DNA of 52,000 bases, taken from assembly GCA_003222395.1 (NCBI GenBank), contig QHWB01000066.1, positions 1 to 52,000 on the forward strand, read 5' to 3'. How positions within the stretch are numbered: the stretch's first letter is position 1; every line of letters starts with the position of its first letter. Both the position numbers and the translations under genes were made by a program. The notes beneath the pieces are model-generated. The model saw nothing but the letters and a program-made list of their open reading frames with translations. It did no database searches and was not told the origin of the DNA. Of this stretch, positions 3,991 through 18,939 are shown one piece after another. This DNA is from Acidobacteriota bacterium (lineage in GTDB: Bacteria > Acidobacteriota > Vicinamibacteria > Vicinamibacterales > CAVVIG01).

Positions 3991-6837
3991 TCAGAATTTC
4001 AGCTGTGTCGATAGACGGAGCAGCCGTCCCTGCAGCACTGCCTGCGGCTGACCGAGGGTCGATCCGAAGTTCTGGTTCTGCGACAGGACGACATTGCTGT
4101 TCAGCGCGTTGAACATGTCGAGGGCGCCGTCGAGGCGATACCTGCCGATCGTGAACACCTTCCGGAAGCTCAAATCGAGCTGCGTCCAGCGATCGAGATA
4201 CTGGCTTCCCGGCGGAACCAGATTGACGGTGACCGCCTGCGTGCGCCCGCCGGGAAACAGATTCGCCGGCACCGCCCAGTTCACCGCGAGCGGCAGCCCG
4301 GCGTAGCTCTGCAGCGAGACGCCGACCTGCGCGCCCCACGCGATCGGATAGCTGCCCGCGAGCTTGTAGTCCGATCGGAACGGGACGTCGTACTGGCTCT
4401 GATCGCAATAGCGGAAAGTATTCGGATCGAAGCTCGCGCATGAGACGGTAATCAGCCTGTCGGCCGACCATCCGCCGAACATGCTGCCGCCTCGCGGCAG
4501 GCGCGCGGAGAAGCTCAGCTCGAGCCCGTTGTAGTTGACGCGCGCCTTCGATCGATCGGTCGCCGTCGTATCGAGCAGGTCGACGAGCCCCTGCTTCGAT
4601 CGATTCAGGTTGTAGATCGTCACCGGCTCGCCGTTGAGCGGGCTCGGCGTCGTGAACGACGCGTAGTCCGTCACGCTTACCAGCGTGTTGAGCTGCTGCT
4701 CGAGATTGTAAGTGTCGCGGCGATACCACGCGGCAGTCACCGACACACCGCGCAGCATCTGCCGCACGACGCCGAGGCTGTACTCGATGTCGTACGGGCG
4801 CTCGATGGTCGGATCGGCGCGCCGCGTGGCGACGATGCCGAGATTGCGATTGTTGCTCGGACCGATTTCGTTGTCCTGCGCGATGCCGTCTCCGTTGGTC
4901 GGCAGGGCGCGGCCCGAGCAGGTGGATGTGCCCGGGTTGTAGTCGCAGTCCGACCAGTTGCGCGTGTCGCTCTGCAGCGCCAGCGGATCGTAGCGGTTTG
5001 CGAAATCGGTCGTGTAGGCGCGGTTGTACTTGTTGATGCTCCCCTTGATGGCAGTCTTCGCGTCGCCGGTCAGGTCGTACACCATGCTGAAGCGCGGCGC
5101 GATGTTCTGCCAGTTCGGCACGTTCGGAATTTCGCCGAACGATCGCGCGGGCACGAAGCGCCCCGCCTCGACGGCCTTTGCCTGAATCGCGGAGTTGAAG
5201 TACTCCCAGCGCAGCCCCGGGTTGATCGTCAGCCGCTTCAGCGTCCACGAATCCTGCACGTAGACCCCGAGGTCCGCCTTCATCAGATCGTAGAGGCGCG
5301 TCGGCGTGTCGTACACGATCACTGAATCGGGCTGGCCGTCGCGGAAGCGGACGGTGAGATCGCCGTTGGCGTCGCGGTTGATCCAGTTCTGGCCGATGTG
5401 CCACTGCAGACCGGCTTTCACCGCGTGCGAGCCGGTGACGTACGCGAGCGTCGACACGAGCATGTAGCGGAAGTTGTAGGTCCCGAGCTCCGGCGGCGCC
5501 GCGAGGTTCGTCGTGTTGCGGACGATGTCGACGCGCGAGGCGTTCGCGTACCACTCCGGCGTGAACGGCGTGCGCAGGATGCCCGGCTGATAGCCCTCGC
5601 GATACGCGTTGACACTGGTTCCGAACCCGGCGTCGTACACGAGTTTGTTGCTGACCGCCGACGTCCACTTGATCGCGTCGGTGTACTTGAGCACGGGAGG
5701 CCGCCGCGCCGCCGCGAGCAGGACGTCCTGGCCCGACGTGAACAGGTGGCCGACGTACTTGGTCTGGTAGTCGTCGTACGCCGTGATCTTGTTGCGCGGG
5801 CTGACCTGCCACGTGAGCCGCAGCGTGTAGTTCCGGACGCGCTGATCGTAGATGCCGGGGCTGCCGTCGGGATAGAAGCTGTTGGCGACGATGTTGTCGT
5901 TGCCGACGCTGCGATGCGAGCCGAAGAACCACAGCTTGTCCCGTTTGATCGGTCCGCCGAGCGACGCGTTCACATCGAAGATCTTGTCGACCGAATCGGG
6001 CGTTCGCAGGCCGCGGTTGATCAGATCCTGCGACAGGTTGTCGCTCTGGAACGAATGGCCGGTGTAGCCGACGTAGGTCGCGCCGCTCAGCGCGTTGCCG
6101 CCTTCGCGCGGCACCAGGTTCAGGTGCGGTCCGCCGGCCGAGACTTCGGCGCCGAGCGCGGCGGTCTGCACCGTGATTTCCTGGCTCATCGCGTCGTTGT
6201 GATCGGGATGGCTGTCGCCGCCGCCGACGAGCGTGTTCATCTTCATGCCGTCGACATCGATGGTCGTGTCCTTGGTGACGCTCATGTGCGCGGTGAGGCG
6301 CGGGTTGACGGCCGCTCGCGCGCCGCCGACATTCTGGTCGCTGACCTTGGTGCCCACGGCGAGCGCGCCTTCGGCCTGATACATGCGCGGCACCGGGACG
6401 GCGTCGAGCAGCTGCCGCGTGAGAACCGTCGTCCGCTGCGCGTTCTGCACGTCGACGACCGGCGACTCGCCCGAGACGGTCACCGACTCCTCGACCGCGC
6501 CGACGCGCAGCTCGGCGTTGACGGTCGCCGTGAAGTTCGACGGCAGCTCGATGCCATCCTGCACGAACGTGCTGAATCCTGGGATCGTGAACGTCACCTT
6601 GTACAGCCCGGGACGCAAGTCGACGATGGCGTAGCGTCCCTGCGCATCGGTCGCGACGGTGCGGACCTTTTCAATGAGCGCGGGGCTCGTCGCCTCCACG
6701 ACGACGCCCGGAAGGACGCCGCCGCTCGAATCCTTCACGAGGCCGGTGATGGCGCTTTGGGCGGACGCTGCCCCGGGAAACAGGACGAGGGCGAAGGCTG
6801 CTGCCACGGCCGCTTGCGCGAGAGTCCGGCGAAGCAT
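3991..6837 (-). CDS. Oar-like TonB-dependent outer membrane receptor
   Basis: 948 aa from the ATG at 6837, chosen because GGAGGG sits 6 nt upstream and a signal peptide follows at once (LAQAAVAAAFALVLFPGAASA, cut near residue 26); the frame is open upstream to 6993. Residues 28-110 form a carboxypeptidase-type regulatory domain (ITGLVKDSSGGVLPGVVVEA), 125-250 a plug-like region, and the rest a large beta-barrel that ends in LKF with the terminal aromatic residue usual for outer membrane proteins. The domain order matches the Oar/SusC-related receptors abundant in acidobacteria, which import oligomers or bind surface ligands. The substrate is unknown and no partner lipoprotein lies beside it. 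A good promoter precedes it. Confidence 0.9.
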   Translation of the reverse strand: MLRRTLAQAAVAAAFALVLFPGAASAQSAITGLVKDSSGGVLPGVVVEATSPALIEKVRTVATDAQGRYAIVDLRPGLYKVTFTIPGFSTFVQDGIELPSNFTATVNAELRVGAVEESVTVSGESPVVDVQNAQRTTVLTRQLLDAVPVPRMYQAEGALAVGTKVSDQNVGGARAAVNPRLTAHMSVTKDTTIDVDGMKMNTLVGGGDSHPDHNDAMSQEITVQTAALGAEVSAGGPHLNLVPREGGNALSGATYVGYTGHSFQSDNLSQDLINRGLRTPDSVDKIFDVNASLGGPIKRDKLWFFGSHRSVGNDNIVANSFYPDGSPGIYDQRVRNYTLRLTWQVSPRNKITAYDDYQTKYVGHLFTSGQDVLLAAARRPPVLKYTDAIKWTSAVSNKLVYDAGFGTSVNAYREGYQPGILRTPFTPEWYANASRVDIVRNTTNLAAPPELGTYNFRYMLVSTLAYVTGSHAVKAGLQWHIGQNWINRDANGDLTVRFRDGQPDSVIVYDTPTRLYDLMKADLGVYVQDSWTLKRLTINPGLRWEYFNSAIQAKAVEAGRFVPARSFGEIPNVPNWQNIAPRFSMVYDLTGDAKTAIKGSINKYNRAYTTDFANRYDPLALQSDTRNWSDCDYNPGTSTCSGRALPTNGDGIAQDNEIGPSNNRNLGIVATRRADPTIERPYDIEYSLGVVRQMLRGVSVTAAWYRRDTYNLEQQLNTLVSVTDYASFTTPSPLNGEPVTIYNLNRSKQGLVDLLDTTATDRSKARVNYNGLELSFSARLPRGGSMFGGWSADRLITVSCASFDPNTFRYCDQSQYDVPFRSDYKLAGSYPIAWGAQVGVSLQSYAGLPLAVNWAVPANLFPGGRTQAVTVNLVPPGSQYLDRWTQLDLSFRKVFTIGRYRLDGALDMFNALNSNVVLSQNQNFGSTLGQPQAVLQGRLLRLSTQLKF

Positions 6838-6871
6838 AAGTCCCTCCAGCGTTGATGGCGAAGATGGACGC

Positions 6872-6900
6872 GAAATATCATTCTCCAGCGGTGATGTCAA
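6872..6900 (-). promoter_or_regulatory. Sigma-70-type promoter for the TonB receptor
   Basis: On the minus strand a perfect -35 TTGACA (plus coordinates 6895-6900) and TATTTC (6872-6877) are separated by 17 bp. Transcription would begin near 6865 and give a leader of about 28 nt carrying the GGAGGG ribosome binding site. Confidence 0.5.
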
Positions 6901-7008
6901 CGATTCGGTGCCTTCGCATGGGAACGCCATCATTTCGAGGCAGAAAGGGAAGTGCGACAATCTGGCCGAATATGTGAAGTGCCTGCCGCTCACGGCTTCA
7001 CGAGCCGA

Positions 7009-7027
7009 ACACCATCTGTTATGGTGT
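7009..7027. promoter_or_regulatory. Palindrome just before the cyclase start
   Basis: A perfect inverted repeat ACACCAT (7009-7015) CTGTT ATGGTGT (7021-7027) ends 4 nt before the GTG start at 7032. The hexamer TATGGT at its centre could serve as a -10. It may be an operator or an RNA hairpin over the initiation region; nothing decides between these. Confidence 0.4.
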
Positions 7028-7031
7028 CGGC

Positions 7032-8006
7032 GTGAAATACCAAAGAATCATCGCCGTGTGCGCGCTGGCGGCCGCCGTCGCGATGCCGTCGCTCTCGGGA
7101 CAGAGCGAGCCGCGCCCGCCGCGCAACGCCGAAGAATTCGATCAGCTGTTTCATCAGGTGTCGAACTGGGGACGCTGGGGCAAGGACGACCAGCTCGGAT
7201 CGGTGAATCTCGTCACGACGGCGAAGCGCAAGCAGGCGATGACGCTCGTGAAAACGGGCGAGTCGGTGTCGCTCGCGCACAATCCGATGACCGAGCGCGC
7301 CGAGGACAACAACAACCCGTTCGAGCACACGATGCTGCGCGGCAACAGCATGGATCGCTATGCCGTGTCGTACCACGGCTACGCGCACAGCCACATCGAC
7401 GCGCTGTGCCACATCCTGTACAAGGACCAGACCTACAACGGCTACCCGCGCGCCGAGGTGAACACCGAGAAAGGATGCACGAAGCTCGGCATCGACAACC
7501 TGAAGAACGGCGTCATCACGCGCGGCGTGCTGGTCGACATCCCACGGTTGAAGGGCGTCGACTTTCTCGAGCCTGGAACGCCGATCTACGTTGAAGATCT
7601 CGAGGCGTGGGAGAAAAAGGCGGGCGTGAAGACTTCATCTGGCGACGCGGTGCTGATTCGCACCGGACGCTGGGCGCGTCGCGCGAAGGTCGGCCCATGG
7701 GCCGTCGGCCAGAACGCCGCCGGGCTGCACGCCTCGGTCGCGCCGTGGTTCAAAGCGCGCGGCGTGGCGCTCGTTGGCAGCGACGCCGCCGAGGACGTGA
7801 CGCCGTCGCGCGTCGAAGGCGTCGCGCTGCCGATCCACACGCTTTTCATCACGGCGATGGGAATCAACCTGCTCGACAACCAGGATCTCGAAGCGCTCGG
7901 CGCCGCCGCGGCGAGGCTCAATCGCTGGGAATTCATGCTGACGATCGCGCCGGTGCCGGTCACAGGCGGCACGGGATTTCCGCTGAACGCCCTGGCGGTA
8001 TTCTGA
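7032..8006 (+). CDS. Secreted cyclase-family metal-dependent hydrolase (kynurenine formamidase-like)
   Basis: 324 aa, GTG start. An N-terminal signal peptide (IIAVCALAAAVAMPSLSG, cut near residue 23) is followed by a cyclase-superfamily domain. The metal-binding signature is HGYAHSHIDALCH at about residues 115-127, corresponding to the HxGTHxDxPxH motif of the family with Ser in place of the usual Thr. Family members hydrolyse N-formylkynurenine, isatin or related amides and lactones. Export to the periplasm and the length (family about 210-330) agree with acidobacterial homologues annotated only as cyclase family protein. It is divergent from the TonB receptor, so a shared substrate is possible but unproven. 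The substrate is unknown. Confidence 0.85.
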   Translation: MKYQRIIAVCALAAAVAMPSLSGQSEPRPPRNAEEFDQLFHQVSNWGRWGKDDQLGSVNLVTTAKRKQAMTLVKTGESVSLAHNPMTERAEDNNNPFEHTMLRGNSMDRYAVSYHGYAHSHIDALCHILYKDQTYNGYPRAEVNTEKGCTKLGIDNLKNGVITRGVLVDIPRLKGVDFLEPGTPIYVEDLEAWEKKAGVKTSSGDAVLIRTGRWARRAKVGPWAVGQNAAGLHASVAPWFKARGVALVGSDAAEDVTPSRVEGVALPIHTLFITAMGINLLDNQDLEALGAAAARLNRWEFMLTIAPVPVTGGTGFPLNALAVF

Positions 8007-13053: not shown

Positions 13054-14646
13054 ATGCGGACCGGCACCAACGCGATCGAAGCGACGAAAGCCTCGAAAGG
13101 CGGCGACGCGCTCACCATCCGCGACGAGTTGCCCGAGCTCATCGCGCGCGGGTACGACGCGTTGAAGAAGACTGACAAGGACCTGCTGAAGTGGCTCGGG
13201 GTGTTCGCGCGCGTGCGAACGCCGGGCCGCTTCATGCTGCGCATCCGGATGCCGAACGGCTTCGCCACCAGCACGCAGCTGCGGGCGATCGCCGAGCTGT
13301 CGCGCCGTCTTGGCAACGGCATCCTCGACATCACGACACGCCAGCAGATCCAGCTGCGCGGCTTCGCGCTCGACGCGATCCCCGAAATCTGGGAGCGGCT
13401 TCGGGGCGTCGATCTGCGCACTCTGCAGACCGGCATGGACAACGTGCGGAACATCAACGGCTGCCCGCTGGCCGGTCTCACGGAGCGCGAGTTGCTGGAC
13501 GCCTCGCCGATCGTGTACGAGCTCGATCGCCTCATCGTCGGCGACGACGGCAATCCTGAATTCACGAATCTGCCGCGGAAGTTCAATGTCACCATTACCG
13601 GGTGCCTCGACAACTGCACGCATGCTGAATCGCAGGACGTGGCGCTCGTGCCCGCCCTGGCCGGCGAGCGGCGCGGGTTCAATGTGCTTGTCGGCGGCAA
13701 GATGGGATCGGGTGGGTTCACCATCGCGTCTCCGCTGGACGTGTTCGTCACTCGGCCGGAAGCCGCCGTCGTCTGCGCCGAGCTGATTCGGATTTACCGC
13801 GACCACGGGCCGCGCGACGCGCGCGGCCGCTGCCGGATGGCGTTCCTGATCGAAGAGTGGGGCGTGCCGCGCCTGCGCCACGAGTTGATGGCCAGACTCG
13901 GCCGCGATCTGCCGTCTGGCGGCCGCGACGCGCGCTCCAAGTCGCACGCCGATCACGTCGGGTACACGTCGCAGCGCGACGCCGGACTGGTCAGCGTCGG
14001 CGTGTGCGTACCGACGGGCCGCGTCAATCCGGATCAGTTGGACGCGCTCGGCAATCTCGCCGACGCCTACGGCACCGGCCACATCCGGTTGACGACCGGC
14101 CAGAACGCGATAGTGCCAAACGTCTCGGCGGCTCGTGTCTCCGCACTTGCACGTGAGCCGCTGCTCCAGCAGTTTTCGCCCGCGCCGCCGCCGCTCATCC
14201 GCGGTCTGGTGACCTGCATCGGCACCGATTTCTGCAACCTCGCGCTCATCGACACGAAGGGACCGGCGCTGGCGCTCGCCAAGACACTCGAGCAACGGCT
14301 TGGTTCGTTCCCAGAGCGGCTGACGATGCACTGGTCCGGATGTCCGGCCGGCTGTGGAAATCATCAGGCGGCTGACATCGGCTTTCGCGGACTGCAGAAG
14401 ACGATCGATGGCAAGAGCGTCGATGCGGTGGCGATCTACGTCGGCGGGCGCACCGGGCCCGACGCGGCCGAAGGGCGGCAGATCATCGACGCCGTGCCGT
14501 GCGAGGAACTGCCAGACGTCGTGGCGAGACTCGTGCTCGCGCGGCAGGCGGCTGCGGCCGAGTCGGGCACGAAAACTGACGACGACGGAGAGCGGCCTGA
14601 AGCTGCGGCGGACCACCGTAGCCTTCGGCGAAGGAGATTAGCGTAG
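13054..14646 (+). CDS. nirA: Assimilatory nitrite reductase (siroheme, 4Fe-4S)
   Basis: 530 aa. It reduces nitrite to ammonium with six electrons in the cytoplasm, using siroheme and a 4Fe-4S cluster. The duplicated nitrite/sulfite reductase fold is seen: first half with RTPGRFMLRIRMPNGF, ITTRQQIQLRG and NVTITGCLDNCTHAE, second half with VPTGRVNPDQ and RLTTGQNAIV. Cluster and siroheme cysteines are Cys388 and Cys394 (CIGTDFC) and Cys430 and Cys434 (GCPAGC). The CIGTDFCNLALIDTK stretch matches ferredoxin-type NirA better than sulfite reductase. The last 30 residues are polar and probably disordered. It heads a nirA-nirC-cobA operon, 22 bp before nirC. No nitrate reductase or nitrate transporter is in the window. 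Confidence 0.93.
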   Translation: MRTGTNAIEATKASKGGDALTIRDELPELIARGYDALKKTDKDLLKWLGVFARVRTPGRFMLRIRMPNGFATSTQLRAIAELSRRLGNGILDITTRQQIQLRGFALDAIPEIWERLRGVDLRTLQTGMDNVRNINGCPLAGLTERELLDASPIVYELDRLIVGDDGNPEFTNLPRKFNVTITGCLDNCTHAESQDVALVPALAGERRGFNVLVGGKMGSGGFTIASPLDVFVTRPEAAVVCAELIRIYRDHGPRDARGRCRMAFLIEEWGVPRLRHELMARLGRDLPSGGRDARSKSHADHVGYTSQRDAGLVSVGVCVPTGRVNPDQLDALGNLADAYGTGHIRLTTGQNAIVPNVSAARVSALAREPLLQQFSPAPPPLIRGLVTCIGTDFCNLALIDTKGPALALAKTLEQRLGSFPERLTMHWSGCPAGCGNHQAADIGFRGLQKTIDGKSVDAVAIYVGGRTGPDAAEGRQIIDAVPCEELPDVVARLVLARQAAAAESGTKTDDDGERPEAAADHRSLRRRRLA

Positions 14647-14668
14647 CGGACGCTCGAGAGGAGGCGGC

Positions 14669-15478
14669 ATGGACTTCGTAAGTGCGAGTGAGGCCATGGC
14701 GGCGGCGCGTCAAGCTGCCGTGAACAAGGCGACGCTGTCTGTACCGCAGATGCTGCTCCGCGGCGCGCTGGCAGGTGCGCTGCTCGGCTACGCCACATCG
14801 CTGGCGCTGATCATCGTGTCGCAGGGCGTTGTGCCGATCGTCGCCGCACTCTGCTTTCCGGTCGGCTTCGTGATGCTCGTCCTCCTGGGCCTCGAGCTCG
14901 CGACCGGCAACTTCGCGATCATGTCGTTCGGGGTCGCCGGCAGCGAGATCGGCTGGCGGGACGTGGCTCGCAACTGGAGCTGGGTGTACGCCGGTAACCT
15001 GATTGGCAGCCTCGTGTACGCGGTCCTCTTCTACCTGGCGATCACCAACATGGGTTCGGCCGCCGGCGGACCACTCGCCGATCAGGTCAGGAAGATCGCG
15101 CAGGCCAAGACACTCGGGTACGCAGCGTTCGGCGCGCGAGGGGTGGCGGCCGCATTCATCAAGGGCGTGCTCTGTAACTGGATGGTCACGCTGGGCGCTG
15201 TGCTGGCCTTCGCGTCGCGTTCGACGATCGGGAAGATTGTCGCCATGTGGCTGCCGATTGCGACGTTCTTCGCTCACGGATACGAGCATTCGATCGTCAA
15301 CATGTTCGTCGTTCCAGCTGGGATGCTGCTCGGCACACCCGTCTCGGTCGCCGGGTGGTGGTTCTGGAATCAGATTCCGGTGACCCTCGGCAACATCGTG
15401 GCGGGTGTCCTGCTGACCGGGTTCACGCTGTCCGTGTCGTACCCGAAACCCGCTGAATCGCACGTCCGCGCGGCGTGA
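14669..15478 (+). CDS. nirC: Formate/nitrite transporter family channel (NirC-like)
   Basis: 269 aa with a strong ribosome binding site GAGGAGG 6 nt before the ATG. Six membrane segments of the FocA/NirC fold are visible, with the family marks GLELATGNFAIM, KGVLCNWMVTLGAVLAF, GYEHSIVNMFVVPAGML and TLGNIVAGVLLTG; the helix-5 histidine (FFAHGYEHSIVN) is present. These pentameric inner membrane channels move nitrite or formate. Placement between nitrite reductase and the siroheme methyltransferase argues for nitrite uptake. The GTG of cobA overlaps its stop as GTGA. Confidence 0.93.
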   Translation: MDFVSASEAMAAARQAAVNKATLSVPQMLLRGALAGALLGYATSLALIIVSQGVVPIVAALCFPVGFVMLVLLGLELATGNFAIMSFGVAGSEIGWRDVARNWSWVYAGNLIGSLVYAVLFYLAITNMGSAAGGPLADQVRKIAQAKTLGYAAFGARGVAAAFIKGVLCNWMVTLGAVLAFASRSTIGKIVAMWLPIATFFAHGYEHSIVNMFVVPAGMLLGTPVSVAGWWFWNQIPVTLGNIVAGVLLTGFTLSVSYPKPAESHVRAA

Positions 15479-16218
15479 GGTCTTTGAACAGTCGTGGACG
15501 CGTGTCGCTCGTCGGCGCCGGTCCAGGGGATCCCGAGCTGCTGACGATTCGAGCGGTGCGCCGGCTTCAGGACGCGGACGTCGTGCTCTACGACGCGCTC
15601 GTGAGCACCGCGATCCTGAAGCTGGCGCCGCGTGCGCGATGTTTCTGTGTCGGCAAGCGTGCCGGCGGTGACGGGGTGCCGCAGGCGGCAATCAACAGGC
15701 TCATGCGTCGAAGCGCGAGACGCGGTGAGCGGGTCGTTCGCTTGAAATGCGGCGATCCGTTCGTGCTCGGTCGAGGCGGCGAGGAAGCGCTCGCGCTGGT
15801 GTCAGACGGAATGGCTGTCGAGGTCGTGCCTGGTGTTTCGGCGGCGATTGCCGCGCCGGCGCTCGCGGGCATCCCGGTCACGCATCGAGGTGTGGCCTCC
15901 GGGTTCGTCGTGATCTCCGGCCATGCCGAGGACGCCTATCGCGCGGTCGTCGACTCGCTCGCGCCCGGCTCGCTGACACTCGTCGTGCTGATGGGTCTGG
16001 CAGCGAGATGCGCGATCGCGCGCGCGCTTCTCGATCGGGGGTGGCGCGGTCGCACTCCAGCGGCCGTGCTCAGAGGCGCCTCGCGACCGGATGCGACGAC
16101 ATGGATAGGCACGCTGCGCGATCTTGCGACGATGTCTGTCGACGACTCCGACTCGGCCCCCGGAACGATTGTCATCGGCGACGTCGTCGATATCGGCGCC
16201 TCCCGTAACCGTTTCTAA
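15475..16218 (+). CDS. cobA: Uroporphyrinogen-III C-methyltransferase
   Basis: 247 aa, GTG start overlapping the nirC stop by 4 nt. It transfers two methyl groups from S-adenosylmethionine to uroporphyrinogen III to give precorrin-2, the committed step to siroheme, the cofactor of NirA. Motifs: LVGAGPGDPELLT (12-24), VGKRAG, RLKCGDPFVLGRGGEEA, VPGVSAAIAAPALAGIP and PVTHRG. It has the short methyltransferase only; the dehydrogenase/chelatase (CysG N-terminal or SirC/SirB type) must be elsewhere. Its TAA converges with the stop of the next gene, sharing CTAA (16215-16218). Confidence 0.93.
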   Translation: MRSLNSRGRVSLVGAGPGDPELLTIRAVRRLQDADVVLYDALVSTAILKLAPRARCFCVGKRAGGDGVPQAAINRLMRRSARRGERVVRLKCGDPFVLGRGGEEALALVSDGMAVEVVPGVSAAIAAPALAGIPVTHRGVASGFVVISGHAEDAYRAVVDSLAPGSLTLVVLMGLAARCAIARALLDRGWRGRTPAAVLRGASRPDATTWIGTLRDLATMSVDDSDSAPGTIVIGDVVDIGASRNRF

Positions 16219-16661
16219 ACATCCGAATGAGTCGATAACCCGGCGGTCAGCGCCGTCGGCAACCGCACAGCGCCGGCGACGCCTGGACTATCGAGCCACG
16301 CCACGATCCGTTTCGCCGCCTGCCGTTCCGCCGGCACCCGGCCGATGCGATCCGAACAGACGAACTCGAGCCGCTCGTTTCCGATCGCCAGTCGGACCAT
16401 GACGACGCGATGATCCGTCGTCGCCTCGCGCGTGGCGAACACGTTGGTGATTTCCACGTGGAGGTCTGCGAGATCCGGCACCGGCGCCACCTGGATGCCG
16501 AGCGCGACGAGCTCGTCGCGCAGCACGTGCAGCGCGTTCAGACGCCGCTCGGTCGACGTGGCCCCGTCGCCGGGACTGCCCTGGAGCGATTGCGGCGCAC
16601 GCACAAAAAGGTACACGGTGAAGCCGGTCATTACGTCTCGGTCACGCGGTGGCATCTTCAT
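16215..16661 (-). CDS. Hypothetical protein
   Basis: 148 aa from the ATG at 16661 (MKMPPRDRDVMTGF); ATGs at 16655 and 16631 are alternatives and none has a strong ribosome binding site. The frame is open to a TTG at 16739. The core VMTGFTVYLFVRAPQ, STERRLNALHVLRDELVALG, LHVEITNVFATRE and RVVMVRLAIGNERLEFVCSD has regular strand/helix alternation without signal peptide or membrane segment, so it is a likely cytoplasmic globular protein. Acidobacterial genomes carry similar orphan proteins, but I recognise no family. It converges on cobA, with overlapping stops, and faces away from the VOC gene across a twin operator. Confidence 0.6.
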   Translation of the reverse strand: MKMPPRDRDVMTGFTVYLFVRAPQSLQGSPGDGATSTERRLNALHVLRDELVALGIQVAPVPDLADLHVEITNVFATREATTDHRVVMVRLAIGNERLEFVCSDRIGRVPAERQAAKRIVAWLDSPGVAGAVRLPTALTAGLSTHSDV

Positions 16662-16749
16662 GCGATGGAGAAGGGCAAACGCGATGCCCGCCGGGAACCG
16701 GCGACAACCGGCCGAATTGCGACGGCTCCAGGCGGACAACGGGAAACGA

Positions 16750-16788
16750 TGACAGAAAATGTCAGGCGCGTCGTGACACGCGTTGTCA
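16750..16788. promoter_or_regulatory. Twin operator TGACA-N5-TGTCA
   Basis: Two perfect 15-bp palindromes of the same design lie 24 bp apart: TGACA GAAAA TGTCA (16750-16764) and TGACA CGCGT TGTCA (16774-16788). Arms are identical while the spacers differ, as expected for a protein-binding site rather than a simple duplication. They sit upstream of the -10 box at 16825 and between two divergent genes. The regulator is unknown. Confidence 0.65.
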
Positions 16789-16824
16789 GCGAGCGCTTGC
16801 GCCGTTTCTGAACACTATCGCCCC

Positions 16825-16830
16825 TATAAT
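16825..16830 (+). promoter_or_regulatory. -10 box of the VOC gene
   Basis: A perfect TATAAT lies 88 bp before the VOC start codon and 37 bp after the twin operator. No matching -35 is present at 17 bp, so activator dependence is possible; a leader of about 80 nt carrying GAGGAGA would result. Confidence 0.5.
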
Positions 16831-16917
16831 CCGGTTTCGGGATGCCTCTTACGCGGAATCAATGAAAAGCCGACGATTGCGGACAGGCGCGGACGGCCTC
16901 GTGAGGAGAACCGAGTC

Positions 16918-17295
16918 ATGTTGAGGAACGCCCCGATTGTGCCCTACATCCCGGTAGCCAACGTCGCCCGGGCGCGCAGGTTCTACGAAGAGAAGGTCGG
17001 ACTGAAGCCGGAACAGGAATACGCCGGCGGCGTGATTTACGAGTGCGGCAAAGGCTCCTGGGTGTTCATGTATCCATCACCAGGCGCCGGCACTTCGAAG
17101 GCGAGCGCCGCGTTCTGGGCGGTCGACGACGTCGCGGCCGAAGTCGCGGAGCTGAAGGCGCGCGGCGTCGTCTTCGAGGAATACGACATGCCGGGGATCA
17201 AGACGGTCAACGGCATCGCGACCGGCGGCGGCGCGAAGACGGCGTGGTTCAAGGACACCGAGGGGAATATCCTGGCGATCAGCCAGCGCCTCTAG
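16918..17295 (+). CDS. VOC (glyoxalase/bleomycin-resistance fold) family protein
   Basis: 125 aa. The start is the ATG at 16918, preceded by GAGGAGA at about 8 nt; the frame is open upstream to 16783 but that part lies in the promoter. Two beta-alpha-beta-beta-beta modules are visible: VPYIPVANVARARRFYEEKVG with GSWVFMYPS, and AAFWAVDDVAAEVAELKARG with AWFKDTEGNILAISQ. The metal site found in true glyoxalase I is only partly matched (terminal Glu in DTEGN), so it may be a dioxygenase-like, isomerase or antibiotic-binding member. Control by the twin palindrome upstream is likely but inferred. Confidence 0.85.
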   Translation: MLRNAPIVPYIPVANVARARRFYEEKVGLKPEQEYAGGVIYECGKGSWVFMYPSPGAGTSKASAAFWAVDDVAAEVAELKARGVVFEEYDMPGIKTVNGIATGGGAKTAWFKDTEGNILAISQRL

Positions 17296-17511: not shown

Positions 17512-18939
17512 TCAAAACGTGAGACTGAACAGATACTGAATCAGATCATGTCTCTCGCCGGTCGACAATCCGAGATGGAAGCATGTGTTGTAGTGGTCGA
17601 CGACGGCAGCGAGAGTGGGGAAGCGGCCATCGTGGAAGAAGCCGCCCTTTGTGTGCGTAAAGATCGCGCCGATCGGAGACGTGCGATACCGCTGGTCAGG
17701 CGCTCGATCCGCCTGAAACGCGTCGACGCAGACCTCGGCCGGCGTGTGCAGGTTCCAGCCCGGTTCGGTCCAGACTGGTTCGACGTGACAGTTGTTGCAG
17801 CCGGCTTTGCCGCTGAACAGCTCATCGCCCCGCTTGGCCGCTGCCGGATCGAAGCTGCCGGCGCGAGGCTGCGGCGACGGAATCGAGAGCTGATAGAACT
17901 GCAGATCCGAAAGCTTCGAGGTAATCCGATCGTCGTCCGGGTTGATGTGCGGCAAATCAGCGAATCCGTGTGTGGCCGCAATCGGAAATTGCGCTGCGTT
18001 ATCGAGACGCGGATCGAAGAACCGTCCGGATCCGTGCATTTCCAGATTGGCGACGAACGCATTCCAGTGCGGCACCGATCCCCAGCCGGTCCACGTATGC
18101 AGGTTGACGCCGCCGAGACCAAACGCGGGCGGGATCAGCGTTGCGCCTGGAACGTTGGTACGCGTGACGACGCCGTTGCTGATTTGCTTGGGGTTGAACG
18201 CTTTGCCGTCGAGAATGAGCTCTGCGTCGAACTTTCCGGGTCCCCAACTTCGGAGCACAGTCCGGACCGTATTCTGACTGACGCCAAGCAGCGCGGCGAA
18301 CGCGCTCAAGTCTGGCGCGAGCGCCACGATTGCGCCGACGTTCAGGTCGCGATTGGCCCAGCCGTCGAGACGACGACCCACGCAGCCGGTGCCAGGATTC
18401 GGGGTCACCGCGCCAGCGCACAACGACGGATGCGAATCGTCGACCGTCGAGTGGCACAGAGCGCATTGAATACCGATGGATTTCAGCGTTCCGTTCGCAT
18501 TGAACTCACCCGTCACGCCAAGGACCGCGTTCAACCTCAGGAGCGCCAGCGTCACCGCCGGGTCATCCAGGTTGACCTTGCCCTTCCCAATCTGATCGAC
18601 GAGGTCATCGGGCAGCGCCGCGACGTCGATCTTGAGGCCGACGGCCAAGGCGGTGCGCGGGCTCACCCCGGGGCCGACGCCGCCTAAACGCGCCCCCTCG
18701 ATCGCCTGGTGGAGCTTCAGCGTGCCGCCCCAGAACGCCTCATCGCCGAAGGTATCGAAGCGAAACGTCTGTCGGCCGCGTTTCACCTTCTGCTCGGCGT
18801 TCTGAACCGGATCCATGACCGGTTGTTTTGCTGTTTCCTGTTGGTCGCCAAACCGCGACCGCCCGACGGCCAGAGCGAGTGTCAACAGCCACAGGACGCT
18901 AACGCTGACGAGCCAGGTGCGGGTTGTCGATCGAGCCAT
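17512..18939 (-). CDS. Exported diheme c-type cytochrome (peroxidase/MauG-like family)
   Basis: 475 aa with a textbook ribosome binding site AAGGAGG 7 nt before the ATG and an uncleaved or cleaved N-terminal signal (WLVSVSVLWLLTLALAVG). Two CxxCH sites are present: IQCALCHSTVDDSHP near residue 160 and AGCNNCHVEPVWTEPG near residue 385. The closing part PIGAIFTHTKGGFFHDGRFPTLAAVVDHYNTC resembles the C-terminal region of bacterial diheme cytochrome c peroxidases. Members reduce hydrogen peroxide or modify proteins or organic substrates in the periplasm. The distal ligands were not identified, so the exact reaction is open. The gene stands alone, between a kinase relic and a long gap. Confidence 0.83.
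   Translation of the reverse strand: MARSTTRTWLVSVSVLWLLTLALAVGRSRFGDQQETAKQPVMDPVQNAEQKVKRGRQTFRFDTFGDEAFWGGTLKLHQAIEGARLGGVGPGVSPRTALAVGLKIDVAALPDDLVDQIGKGKVNLDDPAVTLALLRLNAVLGVTGEFNANGTLKSIGIQCALCHSTVDDSHPSLCAGAVTPNPGTGCVGRRLDGWANRDLNVGAIVALAPDLSAFAALLGVSQNTVRTVLRSWGPGKFDAELILDGKAFNPKQISNGVVTRTNVPGATLIPPAFGLGGVNLHTWTGWGSVPHWNAFVANLEMHGSGRFFDPRLDNAAQFPIAATHGFADLPHINPDDDRITSKLSDLQFYQLSIPSPQPRAGSFDPAAAKRGDELFSGKAGCNNCHVEPVWTEPGWNLHTPAEVCVDAFQADRAPDQRYRTSPIGAIFTHTKGGFFHDGRFPTLAAVVDHYNTCFHLGLSTGERHDLIQYLFSLTF

Follow-up and report, generated by a model that had tools for sequence, protein, structure and literature searches.

Closest described systems and the palindromes of the window

The closest described system is the PilR enhancer of Pseudomonas aeruginosa, Geobacter and Myxococcus, in which, as here, PilS-PilR, a sigma-54 promoter and sites upstream of pilA are found together, pilA following right after pilR in Geobacter (excerpts of PMC6058289 and PMC2725144). 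GTCT elements and TGT-N11-AGA are mentioned for PilR sites in the excerpts of PMC6058289, and non-pilin targets of PilR are already known, with 54 predicted loci cited for Geobacter. More generally, the sites of the NtrC family are dyad-symmetric, their half sites having 5-7 bases and lying about 5 apart, and NmpR of Myxococcus xanthus binds paired GCGCA-N5-TGCGC (excerpts of PMC11841059); the PhoB box consists of CTGTCAT direct repeats (excerpt of PMC3333781).

The window, i.e. the whole 52-kb stretch of DNA analysed, carries a twin of perfect TGACA-N5-TGTCA palindromes at 16750-16788 (Table 1), with identical arms and different N5 spacers, 24 bp from start to start and with 9 bp between the two sites. 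An earlier reading of the letters (hereafter, the sequence-only reading) had described this twin, and its coordinates, arms, spacers and spacing were all confirmed. The intergenic region that holds the twin is flanked by the minus-strand 16215 gene, with a likely ATG at about 16631, and by the VOC gene, whose ATG is at 16918. TGTC is found in the arms of the window palindromes, as it is in the half sites of P. aeruginosa PilR. With respect to the known PilR enhancers, the sites differ in that they form a clean pair of TGACA-N5-TGTCA palindromes at a distance of 22-24 bp, and in that the window copy is predicted to serve a non-pilin orphan gene. The NmpR sites, as far as the excerpts describe them, are like the window twin in having two sites per promoter, each with 5-bp arms around an N5 spacer, and in serving an NtrC-like regulator with sigma-54, but the arm sequence, the regulator and the regulon (oxygen) are others. 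The PhoB box, as excerpted, contains TGTCA like the window arms, but as direct repeats, whereas the window arms are inverted.

Table 1. Positions of the features discussed, in window coordinates
Feature	Position	Strand	Remarks
16215 gene	16215-16631	-	138 aa, MTGFTVYLFV...; start ATG 16631; no Pfam hit
Candidate sigma-54 -24/-12 element	16674-16689	-	GGGCATCGCGTTTGCC; GG 16688-16687, GC 16676-16675
Putative enhancer site proximal to the 16215 gene	16750-16764	.	TGACAGAAAATGTCA; perfect TGACA-N5-TGTCA
Putative enhancer site distal to the 16215 gene	16774-16788	.	TGACACGCGTTGTCA; perfect TGACA-N5-TGTCA
TATAAT noted by the sequence-only reading	16825-16830	+	possible -10 of the VOC gene; outside the enhancer unit
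VOC gene	16918-17295	+	PF00903 glyoxalase/dioxygenase superfamily; judged not to be the target

Perfect TGACA-N5-TGTCA palindromes occur at four places of the 7.74-Mb genome (118 contigs), two of which are the window twin, and the reversed-pattern control gave none. When up to two mismatches were allowed, 1209 forward places were obtained in this genome against 828 for the reversed control, and within the 52-kb window such palindromes are not enriched (7 found, 11 expected from shuffles). What is unusual about the window sites is their perfect arms and their pairing, rather than the number of palindromes.

Of the other perfect single palindromes, that at C25:185672 was rejected, since by eye it overlaps the start of an aminoacylase-like gene and looks like chance. 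That at C94:58697 (58697-58711) overlaps TTGACA just upstream of the genome's own pilB, about 7 kb before pilR-pilA. Among the 17 relatives with an identified pilB (19 stretches), the upstream palindrome is perfect in 7, has one mismatch in 2 and two in 1, and is lacking in 7; a second, weaker site, which overlaps the end of the preceding gene, lies 19-21 bp upstream of it in several of them. The pilB palindrome may possibly serve autoregulation by PilR through the blocking of a -35.

PilR and the twin at pilR-pilA loci

The sequence-only reading had proposed a dedicated regulator whose gene is not adjacent, which agrees with our prediction of PilR, encoded on another contig (C94): a Pfam search of 9 window proteins, from about 13-24 kb, showed no regulator next to the twin. 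This PilR (L043:3641-5056) has receiver, Sigma54_activat and HTH_8 (Fis-type HTH) domains, and the adjoining kinase has a 6TM_PilS domain. Its HTH has no close second in the genome, whose assembly is 99.26% complete: among 14 matches at E 1, the next best are 43-47% identical and their recognition helix is different.

To look at the twin independently of the motif, the search was begun from PilR, whose sequence was searched in the 162 genomes of the order, and the 30 best loci were read up to 1500 nt past pilR, anchored by tblastn. We considered as a twin any pair with at most 5 mismatches of 20 for which at most 3 of 300 shuffles were as good, start-to-start distances of 21-25 being allowed; here, as for the loci of the 16215 family, the shuffles preserve base composition only, without dinucleotides. 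A twin stands directly after pilR in 23 of the 30 loci, with start-to-start distances of 22-24, and in 22 of the 24 loci where pilR is followed by a canonical pilin, the exceptions being G014 (6 mismatches, 13 of 300 shuffles as good) and G046. Besides these two, the loci without a twin by these thresholds, seven in all, are those of G015, G007 and G032, where no pilin was found, G131, with a different pilin, and G122, where the segment is too short. A sigma-54 GG-N10-GC element (10-11 of 11 letters) was present in 20 of the 23 twin loci, at 114.5-142.5 nt from the midpoint of the pair; in G021, G047 and G037 the twin is present and the best sigma-54 match has just 6-7 of 11 letters. The twin is a conserved feature between pilR and pilA in this genome and in most of the relatives examined, usually with a sigma-54 promoter downstream. 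As a side observation, pilR of G003 (L132, i.e. G003:C16:44000-60000; 6187-7595) is split into two overlapping parts, by a change of frame or an internal stop, and is either a broken gene or an assembly error; pilA of G003 retains the twin (3 mismatches, spacing 23).

A genome search for paired copies, as the sequence-only reading had suggested, did find another one, at pilA. Precisely, the core pattern GACA-N5-TGTC-N7..15-GACA-N5-TGTC is present in two places of the genome, the window and C94:66054, which adjoins pilR/pilA, and the pilA twin (C94:66053/66076) has one mismatch per site. An exact pair (gap 2-30) was found in 4 of the 162 genomes of the order, and the control gave none: besides the window genome, these were G025, where it lies upstream of the 16215 homologue, and G062 and G136, where it precedes a pilA-type pilin gene, one that in G136 comes after pilR. 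The core pair occurs at 21 places in 14 of the 162 genomes (reversed control, 0), of which 9 are pilA promoters (including C94:66054), 2 are at the 16215 gene (window genome and G025), 8 are long inverted repeats, judged by their letters (seven in G105, one in G064), and 2 (G002, G139) are unexplained, the stretch around the G002 pair being without pil genes in tblastn. The G105 places are dispersed 39-bp near-perfect inverted repeats, e.g. C4:3315-3353, GACATCGGGTGTCGTTTC...GAAACGACACCCGATGTC, which are REP-like or mobile and were picked up only through mimicry of the pair pattern.

With a stricter pair pattern, 9 places in 7 of 396 genomes of the phylum were obtained, against 1 place for the reversed control; the window twin falls outside it, its gap being longer by one base. 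Outside the window genome (8 places, 6 genomes), 6 of the 8 pairs precede a pilin gene, and 7 of the 8 have a sigma-54-like element scoring 9-11. At L136:1501-2264 (G217, from another Acidobacteriota family) the twin stands before an HD-domain (PF13487) gene, with a near-perfect sigma-54 element 92.5 nt away. This gene likely belongs to a regulon of the same kind without encoding a pilin, so that twins elsewhere may also have targets other than pilin genes.

The 16215 gene, its predicted promoter and its product

The pair and sigma-54 matrices were trained on the pilA promoters of 18 loci from other genomes, taken from the 23 twin-bearing pilR loci, leaving out the window genome, G013, whose contig piece carries no pilin, and G021, G047 and G037 (weak sigma-54 element). 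The window twin scores 36.8 bits (training, 26.5-45.3), and the next best pair in the 52-kb window 10.3 bits. The window sigma-54 element has 8 of 11 consensus letters and is oriented toward the 16215 gene, at 93 nt from the twin; its 9.8 bits are reached by 5 of 103,970 window positions, which corresponds to 0.0056 expected in the 117 nt searched. It is weaker than the pilA elements (9.8 vs 10.9-24.4 bits in training), and its first letter is G, not T. Dyad half sites, paired close sites and a GG-N10-GC element oriented to the gene, by which NtrC-family enhancers are recognised, are all found in the window. The predicted transcription start of the 16215 gene is at about 16663, hence ATG 16631 is its likely start codon; we chose it from this predicted start and from the homologues that begin there, and set aside TTG 16739 of the list of open reading frames.

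The 16215 family was found at 6 places in 5 of the 162 genomes of the order, all in the taxonomic family of the window genome, at 4 loci in a search of genome contigs, and in 3 of the 396 phylum genomes including the window one, one of them being a weak relative (G049, E 1.6e-4) whose N-terminus, by eye, resembles a leader. A comparison with relatives, also suggested by the sequence-only reading, showed the pair upstream of 3 of the 5 other 16215 homologues; the weak sixth relative G049 is without it, no site being found there at 2 mismatches. With these pairs and the one at pilA, the outcome that the sequence-only reading had named as refuting it did not arise. Thus, 4 of the 6 members (window genome, G025, G019 and one G010 copy) have both the twin and a GG-N10-GC element at 92-96 nt from the pair midpoint. 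In that order, the twins have 0, 0, 2 and 2 mismatches of 20 and spacings of 24, 23, 21 and 23, the sigma-54 elements have 8, 9, 9 and 9 of 11 letters, and for each twin 0 of 1000 shuffles were as good. G025 has one further GG-N10-GC element beyond the far side of the pair, and no twin was found at the G003 homologue or at the second G010 copy. The distances of 92-96 nt, against 114.5-142.5 at pilA, suggest independent promoters of one kind and not copies of the pilA promoter.

As regards the surroundings, a DNA search with 16215-17295 in 27 genomes of the family gave mostly short low-score matches, G025 and G009 excepted. The window neighbours of the 16215 gene encode a nitrite/sulfite reductase, a formate/nitrite transporter and a tetrapyrrole methylase; these three genes stand in a row at 13054-16218, likely as a nitrite assimilation operon, head-on into the 16215 gene. 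Near the homologues are PilZ-domain genes (G010, G025) or a GGDEF gene (G019). The contig VFZL01000025.1 (L074), with a homologue of the G003 type, is titled Acidimicrobiia, while the matching genome falls in the family of the window genome, so that it is probably mislabelled.

The 16215 protein belongs to no Pfam or NCBIfam family, and its weak radical-SAM matches (E 0.002-0.02) are far below cut-off. A structure model built from 5 sequences (mean pLDDT 77, pTM 0.72) has a beta-alpha-beta-beta-beta-alpha core at residues ~1-118. The structural matches of this model are to LptE, TolB-N, PelC and CsgG-type domains and to HPF: the four best VIA-align rows (Z 9.0-9.9, rmsd 3.1-3.4, 95-103 residues aligned, 9-16% identity) include three titled LptE or LptDE, and entries of the HPF type (ribosome hibernation factor) come lower in Foldseek, at E 4e-3. 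With identities of 9-16%, no function of the protein follows from these matches, and the absence of a family from the tables of fold matches does not count against it. The LptE group is mostly periplasmic, in contrast to the 16215 protein: no signal peptide is apparent in it by eye, and one would hardly fit after the predicted start of the transcript.

The activator and the target of the window twin

We consider it very probable that the window twin is a PilR sigma-54 enhancer for the 16215 gene, co-activated with pilA, and we infer the binding of PilR to it. The device is of a known kind; its target is new and its site model is clean. Phosphorylated PilR dimers would bind both palindromes and assemble into an active AAA+ ring, which, by looping over about 105 bp, would reach the sigma-54 RNA polymerase and turn on the 16215 gene at the same time as pilA. 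As a guess, the small and probably cytosolic product might work with type IV pili or report on them.

The VOC protein and the 16215 gene had both been offered as the possible target by the sequence-only reading. The second part of this proposal stood, given the sigma-54 element and the conserved twin of the 16215 gene; the first did not, and the VOC gene was rejected as the target on the loci of relatives and on the sigma-54 scan, in which no element toward it was found (best matrix score, -6.0). That the twin is instead an operator for a repressor or a sigma-70 activator controlling the VOC gene would fit the position of the sites, about 40-75 bp upstream of a perfect TATAAT, and the symmetry of the palindromes, which point equally both ways; we regard it as very improbable, because a consensus scan of 16600-16950 gave no -35 partner for the TATAAT and 0 sigma-70-type sites, because no pair was found upstream of VOC in the 11 scanned of 18 other VOC loci, an 86%-identical copy included, and because the sigma-54 element points the opposite way. 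In addition, a VOC homologue is absent at E 0.001 from G025, G019 and G010, which bear the pair at the 16215 gene, therefore the twin goes with this gene and not with VOC. At L009 there is a poor pair (2 mismatches per site), but it is past the end of its VOC gene. Hence the link of the twin to the TATAAT was dropped, and the term operator, in the repressor sense, gave way to that of a sigma-54 enhancer. A wider effect, in which PilR binds and acts on both divergent genes, on 16215 by sigma-54 and on VOC by modulating sigma-70 transcription, is unlikely as well: PilR at the P. aeruginosa pilA is proposed, in excerpts of PMC6058289, to help the divergent pilB promoter, and the genome's own pilB palindrome overlaps TTGACA, with a perfect one just upstream of pilB in 7 of 17 relatives, but the relatives that retain the twin do not share the arrangement with VOC. 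As to the VOC protein itself, it is 86% identical to one in G094, from a different family, and its best match within its own family is 70% over residues 1-74 (G009); a recent transfer of the gene is possible. Farther along, at 17512-18939 on the minus strand, the window encodes a protein resembling MauG / di-heme cytochrome c peroxidase, whose only NCBIfam matches are weak.

If the twin is a sigma-54 enhancer, another NtrC-family activator with sites of the same shape could be its user, with PilR uninvolved. Such activators are often near their own targets, according to excerpts of PMC2725144, and an NtrC-type regulator adjoins the 16215 homologue, downstream of it, in two genomes, G019 (L078 3947-5647; receiver, Sigma54_activat and HTH_8 domains) and G003 (L079 6504-8015), so that another activator could be the user there. 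By eye, the sigma-54 contact loops of these neighbours read GAFSGA and GAFLGA instead of GAFTGA. However, the window palindromes are of the same kind as those of pilR-pilA, in the window genome too, the recognition helix of the neighbour regulator differs by eye, and G003 has the neighbour regulator but no twin at the gene, its twin being at pilA; on account of the differing helix and of G003 we rated the neighbour as a weak rival and its use of the window twin as quite improbable. That the palindromes arose by chance, or belong to a mobile repeat, and regulate nothing would recall the repeat-type inverted pairs of G105 and G064, but different genera have conserved the position of the twin, its spacing and its partner promoter, both at pilA and at the 16215 gene, and the reversed control gave 0 in 162 genomes, which makes this explanation hardly credible.

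With PilR as the predicted activator, we put forward, tentatively and at somewhat less than even confidence, that in this Acidobacteriota family the 16215 proteins are unrecognised partners of type IV pili under the control of PilR, small, cytosolic and always produced along with pilin, which perhaps connect the supply of pili with cyclic-di-GMP signalling, given the PilZ-domain and GGDEF genes near the homologues, and that the twin marks a PilR regulon that can be read from sequence beyond the order, in the phylum. Titles and abstract openings in the open-access literature yielded no PilR site model described for Acidobacteriota. The twin provides such a model, clean and strand-symmetric, and since it holds at 22 of 24 pilR-pilA loci and at several pilin genes of the phylum, PilR targets would be predictable in genomes without experiments. 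Anonymous palindromes thereby become a testable assignment, that of an orphan gene to the PilR/sigma-54 circuit of a soil lineage that is largely uncultured; as the predicted PilR site stands before an uncharacterised gene, a protein would be added to the pilus control circuit of this lineage of soil Acidobacteria.
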